Of a DNA stretch of 49,808 bases, positions 2,573 through 49,808 are shown one piece after another (positions within the stretch are counted from its first letter, which is position 1; every line of letters starts with the position of its first letter). The notes under the pieces were generated by a model. The model was given only the letters and a program-made list of their open reading frames with translations. It searched no databases and was not told the origin of the DNA. Source of the DNA: an uncultured Fimbriimonadaceae bacterium (GTDB taxonomy: Bacteria > Armatimonadota > Fimbriimonadia > Fimbriimonadales > Fimbriimonadaceae); contig CALGMO010000102.1 of NCBI GenBank assembly GCA_937961665.1, positions 1-49,808 on the forward strand, written 5' to 3'. The translations under genes and the position numbers were made by a program.

Positions 2573-3661
2573 ATGAGCAACGCTCCCCTGCGAACCCCGC
2601 TGTACGATCGCCATGTCGCGCTGGGAGCGCGGATGGTCCCCTTCGCGGGCTACGACATGCCCGTCCAGTACGACAGCGTGATCGCCGAGTCGAAGGCCGT
2701 GCGCGAGTCGGTCGGGATGTTCGACGTCTCGCACATGGCCCGGCTATGGCTCCGCGGACCTCGGACCCTCGAGTTCCTCGAGTGGGTGACCGCGAACGAC
2801 GTCTCCAAGCTGGGGGACGGCAAGGGGCAGTACTCGCTGCTGCCCAACGAGAGGGGCGGCACCGTAGACGACATCATCGCCTACCGCATCTCCGAGGACG
2901 CGTTCCGGATGGTCGTGAACGCAGCCAACCACGAGAAGGACCTGCGTTGGCTGCGCGAGCACAACGATCACGGAGTCGAGCTGGAGGACGAGACGGAGCG
3001 AACGGCGATGATCGCCGTCCAGGGTCCGAAGGCTCTGCAGACTCTGGCGGGGCTGTCGAACCGCCCCGAGCTGTTCGAGGGCTCGGCTCTGTTCGACGTG
3101 CTCGAGGCCGAGATCGCCGGGGTGCGCTGCTTCGCCCCGCGGTCCGGCTACACGGGCGAGGACGGTTGCGAGCTGGTCTGCCGCGCCGAGGACGCCGGCC
3201 GGCTGTGGGACGCCCTGCTCGAGGCGGGCGTCAAGCCGTGCGGCCTGGGAGCGCGGGACGTGCTCCGCGTGGAGGCCGGGCTGCCCCTCTACGGCCACGA
3301 GCTCACGGACGACCTGAGCCCGATCGCCGCCGGACTGGGCTGGGTGATCTCCAAGACGAAGTCCTTCATCGGGGCGGAGCCGATCCGCATCGCGAGGGAG
3401 CAGGGAACGCCGACGAAGCTGCAGGGAATCCAGATGGCCGGCAAGAGGCTTCCCCTTCCGGGGACCAAGGTGTACGTCGACGGCCGCGAGGTCGGCGAGG
3501 TCTCCAGCGGAGTGTTCTCTCCGATGCTGGACTGCGGCATCGCCTTCGCGTTCGTGGATCCGTCGATCGCTCTCGGCACGCCCTGCACCGTGGAGCTGAG
3601 GGGCAGGCACGAGCCGGCCACCATCGTGTCCAAGAGATTCCTAAAGAAGGCGAAGGGCTGA
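2573..3661 (+). CDS. gcvT: Aminomethyltransferase (glycine cleavage T protein)
   Basis: 362 residues, the standard length. GcvT takes the aminomethyl group from lipoylated H protein and passes the carbon to tetrahydrofolate, giving methylene-THF and ammonia. Family motifs: TPLYDRHVALGARMVPFAGYDMPVQY at the N-terminus (written here only to position it, residues 8-33), FDVSHMARLWLRGP, the catalytic-Asp block GTVDDIIAYR, SGYTGEDGCEL and GLGARDVLRVEAGLPLYGHEL. The other glycine cleavage genes are not in this window. The gene appears to have its own promoter inside the end of scpB and no leader. Confidence 0.93.
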   Translation: MSNAPLRTPLYDRHVALGARMVPFAGYDMPVQYDSVIAESKAVRESVGMFDVSHMARLWLRGPRTLEFLEWVTANDVSKLGDGKGQYSLLPNERGGTVDDIIAYRISEDAFRMVVNAANHEKDLRWLREHNDHGVELEDETERTAMIAVQGPKALQTLAGLSNRPELFEGSALFDVLEAEIAGVRCFAPRSGYTGEDGCELVCRAEDAGRLWDALLEAGVKPCGLGARDVLRVEAGLPLYGHELTDDLSPIAAGLGWVISKTKSFIGAEPIRIAREQGTPTKLQGIQMAGKRLPLPGTKVYVDGREVGEVSSGVFSPMLDCGIAFAFVDPSIALGTPCTVELRGRHEPATIVSKRFLKKAKG

Positions 3662-46164: not shown

Positions 46165-48087
46165 ATGGGTGGAGATTTGCAGCCCTCGCGAGGTGCCGGT
46201 CTGAGGAGGCAGCGTCGGTTCGCTTTGCTCGCGGCGCTTCTCGATGGGCTGATGGTGTCCGCTAGCCTCTTTCTGGCGTTCGGCCTGATGTCCGGTCAGT
46301 CCGGCCACTGGATCCGTACGCCTGTCGGGCTCCTCGTCGCCTTGGGGTTGTCCTCGGCGGTGGTGGGAATCCTCGCCTTGCGCGGCCTGTACCGAGTCGA
46401 CGTGCGGTACGTCAGCCTCACGGAGTTCCTCGAGATCATCGCCGCGTGCGTGCTGGCGAGCGTCGCCGTCGGCGTCTACGACTTCTTCGTGCGCCACGAC
46501 ATCGCCCTCAGTGCCTCTCTGGGGCCGGTGCTGTTCGCCTACTACACGATCAGCCTCCTCTGCGGCGTGCGGGTGGTTCACCGGTCCATCGCTTGGCGGT
46601 CCCGCACGGGAGTCTCTGCCACGCGCCACCCCAACCGGGCGCTCGTCGTGCGGTTCGGAGACCACGCCGAGCGGCTGATCCGGGAGCTCGACCGACAGCC
46701 GAACTCCCGGTTCGTGGTGGTCGGAATCGTCGACGACGACCCGGCGCACAAGCGGCTCCGCATCCGGGGCGTGCCCGTCGTCGGAACGATCGGCGATCTG
46801 CCGGACGCCATCGAAGGGTTGGACATCCACGACGTGATCGTCGCCAGCGCCGAGATTCCCGGCTCCGAGATCAAGAGGATCTTTCAGGTGGTTCGGAACA
46901 CCAGCGCGCGGGTGCGCATCGTTCCCACGATCGACAACCTGATCCGGGGCGCGGCGCTGACCCCGCAGATGCGGGAGATCGAGATCCAGGACCTGCTGCG
47001 GCGGCCGCCGGTGTCCGTCGATCTCGCCAAGATCGCCGGATACCTGACGGGAGAGCACGTGCTGATCACGGGCGGCGGCGGATCGATCGGGAGCGAGCTC
47101 GCCCGACAGGTCGCCAGGCTCAACCCCGCCAGCCTGATCCTGGTGGGCCGAGGCGAGAACAGCCTCTATGAAATCGAGCAGGAGCTGATCCAGACCACCC
47201 AGCTGCGCCCCACCGCCGTCGTGGCGGACATCCGCAACCGCGCGGCGATCGAGGAGGTCGTCGCCAAGTACCGGCCCACCGTCATCTTCCACGCCGCGGC
47301 GCACAAGCACGTGCCCCTGATGGAGAGCAACCCGATCGAGGCCATCGAGAACAACGCCCTCGCCACCCGGACCCTCGCCGAACTGGCGGTGAAGCACGGC
47401 GTGCGGAAGTTCATCATGCTCTCCACCGACAAGGCGGTGAACCCCAGGAGCGTGATGGGCGCGAGCAAGCGTGTCTGCGAGATGATCGTCTCGGCCTACG
47501 GCGCGACCTCGGAGACGGAGTTCGCGGCCGTCCGCTTCGGGAACGTTCTGGGCAGCCGGGGAAGCCTCGTGCCGCTGATCCAGGCGCAGATCCGTCGCGG
47601 AGGCCCGGTCCGAGTGACGCACCCGGAGATGACCCGGTTCTTCATGACCATTCCCGAGGCGGTGCAGCTCGTGCTGCAGGCCGGGGCCATGGGCACGCGG
47701 GGCGAGATCTTCATTCTGGACATGGGAGACCCGGTGCGCATCGACGACCTGGTGCGGGACATCGTCCGCCTCCACGGCCTGGTGCCCGACGAGGACATCC
47801 GCATCGAGTACACCGGCGCGAGGCCCGGGGAGAAGCTGCACGAGGCCCTTGCCAACGAACCCGAGGACCTCGTGCCGACCGCCCACGGCAAGATCAACGT
47901 CGTGCGGACGGGGACCGCCATCGATCGGAACTGGCTGCTCCGCGACTTGGACCGCCTGGCGGAGCTCTGCCGGATGCGCAAGGCCGACGAGGCCAAGCAG
48001 ATGCTGATGGACATCGCATGGGGTCGAACTCCGGCCGCTACGGAGTCCGAGATCCGTTCCTCCCGGCTCACACCGCGCGCCGAATAG
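46165..48087 (+). CDS. Membrane-bound nucleotide-sugar 4,6-dehydratase (CapD/PglF/WbpM/FlaA1-like)
   Basis: 640 residues. Four predicted membrane spans at about 18-40, 48-70, 85-105 and 118-135. A Rossmann-like regulatory domain follows (about 150-270), but its glycine-rich loop is degenerate (ALVVRFGDHAERLIREL). The catalytic extended-SDR domain is at about 290-600: HVLITGGGGSIGSELARQ (NAD), AAAHKHVPLMESNP, and STDKAVNPRSVMGASKR, where Asp-Lys replace the usual Tyr-Lys pair. It would make UDP-4-keto-6-deoxy sugars for surface glycans or flagellin glycosylation. The ATG is preceded by AGAAGGGAG. Confidence 0.9.
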   Translation: MGGDLQPSRGAGLRRQRRFALLAALLDGLMVSASLFLAFGLMSGQSGHWIRTPVGLLVALGLSSAVVGILALRGLYRVDVRYVSLTEFLEIIAACVLASVAVGVYDFFVRHDIALSASLGPVLFAYYTISLLCGVRVVHRSIAWRSRTGVSATRHPNRALVVRFGDHAERLIRELDRQPNSRFVVVGIVDDDPAHKRLRIRGVPVVGTIGDLPDAIEGLDIHDVIVASAEIPGSEIKRIFQVVRNTSARVRIVPTIDNLIRGAALTPQMREIEIQDLLRRPPVSVDLAKIAGYLTGEHVLITGGGGSIGSELARQVARLNPASLILVGRGENSLYEIEQELIQTTQLRPTAVVADIRNRAAIEEVVAKYRPTVIFHAAAHKHVPLMESNPIEAIENNALATRTLAELAVKHGVRKFIMLSTDKAVNPRSVMGASKRVCEMIVSAYGATSETEFAAVRFGNVLGSRGSLVPLIQAQIRRGGPVRVTHPEMTRFFMTIPEAVQLVLQAGAMGTRGEIFILDMGDPVRIDDLVRDIVRLHGLVPDEDIRIEYTGARPGEKLHEALANEPEDLVPTAHGKINVVRTGTAIDRNWLLRDLDRLAELCRMRKADEAKQMLMDIAWGRTPAATESEIRSSRLTPRAE

Positions 48088-48102
48088 CTCAGCGTGGGTC
48101 TG

Positions 48103-48132
48103 TTGACGCCAGCCCCGCCCCTGTGGTAGAGT
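48103..48132 (+). promoter_or_regulatory. Promoter of the rpsO-pnp operon
   Basis: TTGACG (48103-48108) and TAGAGT (48127-48132) are 18 bases apart. The predicted start at about 48139 is the first base of a large leader stem. Confidence 0.6.
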
Positions 48133-48139
48133 TCGTTGT

Positions 48140-48219
48140 CCCGCTTCGGACGGTCGTTGCCGTTGTATGGAGATTCCCACGGGCGTCTGCATAGAGCGGC
48201 AAAGCAACTCCGAAGCGGG
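48140..48219 (+). promoter_or_regulatory. Structured 5' leader of rpsO, candidate S15-responsive element
   Basis: CCCGCTTCGGA (48140-48150) pairs perfectly with 48209-48219, closing 58 bases. Inside, TTGCCG (48157-48162) can pair with CGGCAA (48197-48202), or GTTGC (48156-48160) with GCAAC (48204-48208). A small hairpin TGG/CCA (48168-48179) fits in the middle. The ribosome site GGAGG follows at about 48229. S15 represses its own mRNA through varied leader folds in several phyla. Confidence 0.6.
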
Positions 48220-48247
48220 GCGAACACTGGAGGCACTTGACTTAAGC

Positions 48248-48529
48248 ATGCCGCTGGAGAAGACTCTCAAAGCTTCGATCATCGCCGAGCACCGCGCCAG
48301 CGAGTCCGACACGGGCTCGACGGAGGTCCAGATCGCGATTCTTCACGCCCGGATCCAGCAGATCACGGAGCACCTGAAGAAGAACCGGAAGGACTTCCAC
48401 AGCCGGCGCGGTCTCATGATGCTCGTTGGAAAGCGCCGGCGGCTTGAGGCGTACCTGCGCTCTCGGGACATCGCTCGCTACCGCGAACTGATCCAGAAAC
48501 TCGGCATCCGCGAAGTCAAGCCTCGCTAA
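48248..48529 (+). CDS. rpsO: Ribosomal protein uS15
   Basis: 93 residues from the ATG at 48248; upstream in-frame residues are leader. S15 blocks are seen: [51 protein letters not shown] (residues 41-71 in outline) and [13 protein letters not shown]. It binds the 16S rRNA three-way junction early in 30S assembly. pnp follows after 11 bases, the widespread rpsO-pnp order. GGAGG is 14 bases upstream, rather far from the ATG. Confidence 0.96.
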
Positions 48530-48540
48530 GGAGGCTACGT

Positions 48541-49808
48541 ATGATTCAATCCCACGCTTTCGAGGTTGGGGGCAAGACCCTCAGCGTCGAAACCGGTCGT
48601 GTCGCTCGCCAAGCGGGCGGCGCCGTTCTCCTCGGTATGGGCGAGACCGTCGTGCTCGGCACTGCGACCATGTCCGCCGAACCTCGCCAGGGCATCGACT
48701 TCCTCCCGCTGGTCTGCGACTACGAGGAGCGCAAGTACTCCGTGGGCAAGATCCCCGGAGGATTCATCAAGCGCGGAGGGCGCCCCAGCGAGAAGGCGAT
48801 CCTCGTCAGCCGGCTGATCGACCGACCGATCCGCCCCCTCTTCCCCAAGGGCCTGCGCAACGACGTCCAGGTGATCGCCATGCCGTTCGCCGTGGATCCG
48901 GAGTGCCCGCCCGACGTCCTCGCCATCAACGCGGCGGGAGCCGCCCTCGCCGTCTCGGACGTCCCCTTCAACGGACCGATCGCGGGAGTCCGCGTCGGAC
49001 GCATCGACGGCCAGTTCGTTCTCTTCCCCTCGATGGAGGAGATCGAACGCTCCGACCTCGACCTGATCGTCGCCGGCCACAAGGGCGCGATCTCCATGGT
49101 GGAGGCGGGGGCCAACGAGGTGTCCGAGGAGGACATGCACGAGGCCCTGAAGATCGCGTTCGAGGCGATCCAGCTGATCTGCACCGAGTTCGAGAAGTTC
49201 GCCCAGATCGCCGGAAAGCAGAAGCGCGAGGGGCACATTTTCCGCGTCTCTCCCGAGCTGGCCGAGACGATCGACCGGGAGTGCCGCGAGGAGATCGAGG
49301 CCGCCATCTGCAACCCGGACAAGGCCGCCCGAGAGTCGGCCTTGGACGATCTCTCCAAGGAGCTGGTCGCCAAGTACGCCGAGCGCTTCGCCGACGATCC
49401 GGAGACCGTCGCCCAGCTGCCCGAGGCGGTGGACAAGGTCGTCAAGGGCACCGTCCGGCGGCTCATCCTGGAGCACGACCGGCGCCCGGACGGACGTGCC
49501 CTGGACGAGATCCGTCCGCTGGAGGCCTGCGCGGGCCTCTTGCCGAAGGTGCACGGGTCGGGCCTGTTCACCCGCGGCCAGACCCAGGTGATGACGATCT
49601 GCACGCTGGGTCTTCCCAACGAGGCCCAGATCATCGACGGCCTGGAGCTCGACACCGAGAAGCGCTTCATGCACTTCTACAACTTCCCGCCCTACAGCGT
49701 GGGAGAGGTGCGGCCCCTGCGCGGCCCCGGGCGCCGCGAGGTCGGTCACGGAGCCCTCGCCGAGCGCGCGCTCAAGCCCGTCGTGCCGATCGACGAGCCC
49801 GACTTCCC
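48541..49808 (+). CDS. pnp: Polynucleotide phosphorylase, 3' end outside the window
   Basis: 422 residues are visible of about 700; the frame is open to the window end. The first RNase PH domain is at about 10-145 (VLGTATMSAEPRQGIDFLPL, CDYEERKYSVGKIPGGFIKR, GRPSEKAILVSRLIDRPIRPLFPKG). The helical domain is at about 235-320. The second RNase PH domain begins RRPDGRALDEIRPLEACAG and includes GSGLFTRGQTQVM and RFMHFYNFPPYSVGE. It degrades RNA 3' to 5' by phosphorolysis. AAGGAGG lies about 6 bases before the ATG. Confidence 0.96.
   Translation, partial: MIQSHAFEVGGKTLSVETGRVARQAGGAVLLGMGETVVLGTATMSAEPRQGIDFLPLVCDYEERKYSVGKIPGGFIKRGGRPSEKAILVSRLIDRPIRPLFPKGLRNDVQVIAMPFAVDPECPPDVLAINAAGAALAVSDVPFNGPIAGVRVGRIDGQFVLFPSMEEIERSDLDLIVAGHKGAISMVEAGANEVSEEDMHEALKIAFEAIQLICTEFEKFAQIAGKQKREGHIFRVSPELAETIDRECREEIEAAICNPDKAARESALDDLSKELVAKYAERFADDPETVAQLPEAVDKVVKGTVRRLILEHDRRPDGRALDEIRPLEACAGLLPKVHGSGLFTRGQTQVMTICTLGLPNEAQIIDGLELDTEKRFMHFYNFPPYSVGEVRPLRGPGRREVGHGALAERALKPVVPIDEPDF

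Follow-up and report, generated by a model that had tools for sequence, protein, structure and literature searches.

The rpsO-pnp transcript of an uncultured Fimbriimonadaceae bacterium is predicted to start with a long hairpin. Comparative sequence evidence confirms this leader as a new, strongly conserved and covariation-supported RNA family of the order Fimbriimonadales. The RNA is linked to pnp, the gene of polyribonucleotide nucleotidyltransferase (PNPase), rather than to rpsO, the gene of ribosomal protein S15, and this link is well supported. In our best explanation, to which we give a probability of roughly 0.6, the leader is a cis-regulatory hairpin of pnp on which RNase III and PNPase act in a feedback loop. 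Such an RNA would probably let the cell control its own RNA-decay enzyme.

The leader hairpin and its surroundings

The window, the whole stretch of 49,808 nt that was analyzed, corresponds to contig 102 of a genome of 2.88 Mb and 95% completeness. The upstream neighbor of the leader is a nucleoside-sugar epimerase/dehydratase-like gene that ends at 48087. The features of the region are as follows.

48103-48132, plus strand: predicted promoter TTGACG-18-TAGAGT with TG extension (extended -10), the sole promoter-like site in 47900-48400 (0.0 expected in shuffles)
48136-48223, plus strand: whole 5'-terminal hairpin (pnp-operon leader RNA), from the fold (z = -4.9) and outer-stem coevolution (0 of 20,000 permutations)
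48136-48150, plus strand: outer stem, 5' strand, holding 48140-48150 of the reported pairing, from sequence and fold
48159-48200, plus strand: conserved core GCCG-UUG-N4-GAG-stem-loop-YUG-N4'-GAG-CGGC, from a covariance-model match at 48155-48203 (62.7 bits) and covariation
48163-48172, plus strand: pseudo-symmetric element, 5' strand UUG-UAUG-GAG; in the columns of alignment A3 (below), U9 and U10 81/81, G11 70/81, A17 78/81, G18 77/81
48187-48196, plus strand: pseudo-symmetric element, 3' strand CUG-CAUA-GAG (UUG in most relatives); A3 columns G40 80/81, A41 81/81, G42 80/81
48209-48223, plus strand: outer stem, 3' strand, holding 48209-48219 of the reported 11 bp, from sequence and fold
48229-48233, plus strand: Shine-Dalgarno (SD)-like GGAGG of rpsO, outside the hairpin and 14 nt before the ATG at 48248, from sequence
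48248-48529, plus strand: rpsO, ribosomal protein S15 (TIGR00952, 118.8 bits, above its cut-off)
48541-49808, plus strand: pnp, PNPase, cut by the window end (NF008805, 525.8 bits, above its cut-off)

The segment CCCGCTTCGGA at 48140-48150 is the exact reverse complement of TCCGAAGCGGG at 48209-48219, and the perfect 11-bp pairing reported in the initial annotation is borne out by the sequence. In the predicted fold, it is part of an outer stem of 15 bp (48136-48150 with 48209-48223), and the bases inside this stem pair in the minimum-energy structure into another long helix, broken by small interruptions. The short competing pairings that had been suspected inside the stem appear in the fold as pieces of this single hairpin. 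The predicted hairpin is a duplex of some 30 bp in ~88 nt, with the ribosome-binding site beyond it, just after the stem as had been proposed. The minimum free energy of the leader is -64.4 kcal/mol, compared with a shuffled mean of -44.2 (sd 4.1; z = -4.9), and none of 200 shuffles was as low. By these folding calculations, the hairpin is real and stable.

Since the promoter-like site ends at 48132, the predicted transcription start falls near 48138-48140, where the stem has its base. This start agrees with the original placement, and in both cases it is a prediction. A -10-like GGTA box is found in relatives at a similar short distance upstream of the hairpin. Upstream of its start codon, the rpsO frame stays open across half of the hairpin (48167-48529, with an in-frame ATG at 48167). 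This opening is probably due to chance because the frame is much shorter in many relatives.

Conservation and covariation of the RNA

The leaders of relatives share the core 5'-GCCG-UUG-N4-GAG-stem-loop-UUG-N4'-GAG-CGGC-3'. Each strand of the core reads approximately UUG-N4-GAG, which gives the element nearly two-fold symmetry around the N4 helix. Both sides had changed in 11 of 18 core pairs among 25 sequences (alignment A1) and in 12 of 18 among 79 distinct copies (A3). A3 was aligned to the covariance model and hence leans to the structure; A1 was made with MAFFT without a model and gives the same picture. In A3, 211 cells were changed on both sides against 67 in shuffles, the covariation score was 0.424 against 0.169 for shuffled data, and 89.7% of the cells were paired, compared with 35-54% when the columns were slid by 1-3. 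Antisense matches of the covariance model (R1) in relatives, which come from the palindromic nature of the hairpin, were excluded from A3.

Four inner pairs of the core are invariant (C-G, C-G, G-C, and U-A), and the adjoining U.G varies in one sequence only. On sequence grounds, this invariance points to direct recognition. G11 and G40 form a mismatch in most copies and a C-G pair in 11 of 81, indicating that the mismatch itself is not required. The sequence of the outer stem differs genus by genus. Its own 5' and 3' flanks pair at a mean of -19.5 kcal/mol versus -13.1 for cross-species combinations, and none of 20,000 permutations was as good. The covariation check that the initial annotation had proposed for the stem was therefore positive among relatives, for the core as well as for the outer stem.

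Rfam had no match to the leader, whether the whole window was scanned with gathering scores or 48000-48400 with a limit of E<=10, and a literature search found no work linking Armatimonadetes, structured RNA, and rpsO. Its early description as resembling no identifiable type is thus upheld, and a phylum for which we found no rpsO or pnp leader described in the literature gains a covariation-supported RNA family. Of 291 Armatimonadota genomes, 83 had an R1 match, and every one of the 83 belongs to the order of the window. The source genome holds one credible R1 copy (48155-48203) and no credible second one; the next matches are the same hairpin on the minus strand and another at E 2.7. An R2 search, run without a positive control, gave nothing at E<=0.01 in 301 genomes of a Chloroflexi-bearing phylum and 7 genomes of other phyla. 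Rfam found only tRNAs on 19 loci of other lineages.

Some leaders show looser likeness. In family f2 (L216-L219, L221-L225, L125, L127, L130, and L246), the long 5' hairpin upstream of rpsO-pnp is kept and the core has diverged; one of these leaders (L125, genome G049) has UGAUGA on both strands and is near two-fold symmetric too. Outside the order of the window, nine genomes of genus g92 in family f19 (L242, L243, L271, L274-L278, and L281) have a very long rpsO-pnp leader hairpin. Its inner helix, GCCGUU-G...G-AACGGC, recalls the core, and judged by this resemblance it is possibly a distant relative of the Fimbriimonadales RNA.

Placement of the RNA at pnp and rpsO

We inspected the surroundings of every R1 match. 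The RNA lies ~40-100 nt before the rpsO of an rpsO-pnp arrangement in 68 genomes, a count that includes G039, whose contig ends before pnp. In 14 of the 83 genomes, its position is immediately before pnp and not before rpsO. It stands between rpsO and pnp in G009, G011, G016, G046, G148, G154, and G157, and at a pnp without adjacent rpsO in G003, G015, G017, G026, G147, G149, and G166. The rpsO gene is on another contig in G003 and G015, ~170 kb away from pnp in G017, and ~9 kb away in G026. All R1 matches precede rpsO-pnp, pnp, or (in G131) rpsO, except for one weak match (G156:C37, E 0.006). The R1 search found no second copy in the 14 pnp-side genomes, and the rpsO leaders examined from these genomes had no R2 match; one chance-level match (E 0.74) lies elsewhere in L008.

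A -10-like GGTA box stands shortly before the hairpin in all 10 pnp-side loci displayed, so that the RNA appears to have its own promoter there. On the PNPase tree, the two placements require 6 changes, of which at least 3 are forced by well-supported branches. At one locus (L013), the pnp-side copy scores 48.5 bits and the rpsO-side copy is undetected at E<=1. From the pnp-side placements, the GGTA boxes, the PNPase tree, and this locus, we conclude that the RNA goes with pnp. The relocated copies provide a clean test of the identity of the regulator. They also illustrate that a leader may stand before the gene of a ribosomal protein and yet belong to that of the enzyme downstream, and that the first gene of an operon is an unsafe guide to the ligand.

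This placement bears directly on S15. The initial annotation had proposed a new S15 autoregulatory leader; a large, structured, conserved, and new leader it is, and S15 as the regulator is what the 14 genomes with the RNA at pnp only speak against. In S15 autoregulation, free S15 would bind the core as a mimic of helix 22 (h22) of 16S rRNA and repress rpsO (and pnp). The gene rpsO is the first gene in most genomes, and S15 leaders vary from phylum to phylum (PMC4137082). The invariant G-C beside U.G and the GAG//UUG of the core also resemble AGAG//UGG of the genome's own 16S h22. However, the geometry differs, since the two Gs of the core step (G8-C43 and U9.G42) are on opposite strands, whereas those of the genome's own 16S (G666.U740 and G667-C739) are on one strand. 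A three-way junction as in the 16S S15 site appears neither in the fold nor in the consensus, and the SD sequence is outside the hairpin. Mimicry of 16S h22 was rejected as a candidate because only a local GAG//UNG resemblance was found; missing mimicry alone is not decisive against S15, since known S15 leaders vary.

Described S15 leaders use a G-C/G-U step or a three-way junction (PMC4137082, PMC7247131). They include RF00114 of E. coli and the Geobacillus, Thermus, alphaproteobacterial, actinobacterial, chlamydial, and archaeal types (PMC4137082, PMC7247131). The Fimbriimonadales RNA is like them in being a structured leader before rpsO and in the invariant G-C/G-U step of its core. It differs in the geometry of this step, in the lack of a predicted pseudoknot or three-way junction and of any Rfam match, and in following pnp when the genes part. 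An S15 leader should stay with rpsO when rpsO and pnp separate; the RNA is found at pnp only in the 14 genomes, through at least 3 changes on the tree, and the sole opposite case is G131, which retains it at rpsO without pnp. S15 as the regulator is disfavored and, in our estimate, highly improbable; it is kept among the possibilities mainly because of G131.

In G131 (L012 and L151), a good copy of 62.9 bits precedes rpsO (L012:3001-3420), which is followed by a terminator-like hairpin. There is no pnp within 3 kb of this rpsO and no further RNA copy in the genome at E<=0.01, and pnp was not found by tblastn in the part of the genome searched. A recent separation of rpsO and pnp that left the promoter and leader at rpsO would explain these findings, as would a control role of S15.

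Several other loci deserve mention. The two copies at L013 are at 2914-2956 and 3468-3516, the decayed one before rpsO and the better one before pnp, which looks like duplication followed by loss. G030 and G159, reduced AT-rich genomes of genus g29, have no R1 match. G030 (L113 and L202; 1.5 Mb, same family as the window) keeps both RNase III and pnp, and its RNA was lost with genome reduction; the missing match despite RNase III counts against the RNase III/PNPase reading. At L173:1983-2247 (G135:C139), two near-identical RNA copies ~185 nt apart stand before one rpsO and pnp is split between frames; either a tandem duplication or a fault of the assembly may lie behind this. The record L005 (JADZEW010000001.1), titled Methanoregulaceae archaeon, holds a typical Fimbriimonadales rpsO-pnp locus with a leader identical to that of G012 and is probably misnamed or misbinned.

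A proposed feedback model for pnp and other readings

Taken with the covarying, conserved structure and the promoter-like -10 box just before it in relatives, the linkage makes the hairpin, which should begin at the mRNA's 5' end or close to it, very probably a pnp-linked cis-regulatory RNA. RNase III/PNPase feedback is the mechanism that we favor, at slightly better than even odds and by analogy with other bacteria. In E. coli, RNase III cuts the pnp leader hairpin and PNPase then degrades the freed strand or fragment (PMC3997798, citing Jarrige 2001 and Carzaniga 2009). Streptomyces controls pnp in like manner: a hairpin between rpsO and pnp is cut by RNase III, and the transcript is stabilized in an rnc mutant (PMC10126417). 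Two features expected of such autoregulatory leaders were found here, namely a long leader hairpin on a transcript that encodes pnp, and RNase III in the organism; RNase III (TIGR02191 over the cut-off) is present in 58 of 61 relatives, with the window's own genome among them.

In the proposed feedback, RNase III would cut within the long duplex, where the pseudo-two-fold UUG-N4-GAG core may guide it. The short 5' strand would stay paired to the start of the mRNA after the cut, and PNPase would degrade it from its new 3' end. Removal of this strand would expose the mRNA to decay or reduce its translation. A high level of PNPase would therefore lower PNPase synthesis and, in the arrangement of the window, S15 synthesis too. 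We infer cleavage, dependence on PNPase, and the direction of control from the known systems.

The near-symmetric core would suit a dimeric nuclease. However, RNase III usually needs little sequence, and the almost invariant core suggests a more specific recognition, which argues against the RNase III feedback. The pseudo-two-fold UUG-N4-GAG duplex may be a dedicated operator that a dimeric protein reads in a sequence-specific way, such as a PNPase operator or an RNase III site peculiar to the lineage. We consider this idea tentative. If true, this would be the first pnp leader with a recognition element coded in its sequence, and the element would move with pnp as a unit.

The nearly invariant nucleotides of the core, which suggest specific recognition, and the linkage to pnp are also consistent with direct binding, in which PNPase would bind the intact core as an operator via its KH and S1 domains and block translation or trigger decay without RNase III. 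PNPase acts as a trimer and favors single strands whose 3' end is free, and the hairpin leaves the SD sequence uncovered; both points make this reading unlikely. On the other side, the KH and S1 domains share in pnp autoregulation in other bacteria (PMC10126417). Another factor, either an RNA-binding protein or a small molecule, might target the hairpin and tune PNPase to the growth state. The almost invariant UUG/GAG and GCCG/CGGC in families f1 and f3-f5 and the long hairpin with a different core in family f2 would fit such a factor. No such factor is known, however, and the core is helical almost throughout and offers no obvious pocket, so we regard this as quite unlikely.

A simpler role would be protection, with the hairpin only shielding the long mRNA from 5'-end-dependent decay and no regulator involved. 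Hairpins at 5' ends are known to stabilize mRNA, this one is at the predicted 5' end, and some 5' hairpin occurs in many rpsO-pnp leaders of Armatimonadota. A plain stabilizer, however, requires no invariant core and need not follow pnp, making a pure shield very unlikely.

Returning to the RNase III/PNPase feedback, the known pnp leaders differ from the Fimbriimonadales RNA in sequence. The folded MG1655 region shows that the E. coli leader is likewise an interrupted long hairpin of ~90 nt in an rpsO-pnp operon. It has no recognizable sequence or core similarity, R2 has no match there, and it lies between rpsO and pnp, whereas the hairpin of the window lies before rpsO. Cleavage is proven for the E. 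coli hairpin and measured for the Streptomyces hairpin, and for the Fimbriimonadales hairpin it is proposed by analogy; the Streptomyces sequence is unrelated.

Actino-pnp (RF01688; PMC2864571) is likewise a conserved hairpin just upstream of pnp. Folded for comparison, its members show a similar build, in which the outer helix is followed by a small mismatch, ~5 bp of helix, further mismatches, and a variable apical stem. Its conserved sequence is different (CCGGUC-C-UCGGU...AUCGA-A-GACCGG), and it occurs in Actinomycetes only. The window did not match RF01688 even at E<=10, and none of 61 relatives was over the cut-off; in a control search, 19 of 296 genomes of an actinomycetes-bearing phylum were over it. 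R2 gave no credible match on RF01688 members. Membership in RF01688 was rejected, as the gathering cut-off was reached neither in the window nor in the 61 relatives. With pnp controlled in this way, 5' hairpins of unrelated sequence would serve pnp in the unrelated lineages of E. coli, actinomycetes, and Fimbriimonadales, suggesting convergent self-control of RNA decay. Of the RNAs described so far, Actino-pnp comes nearest in function and place.
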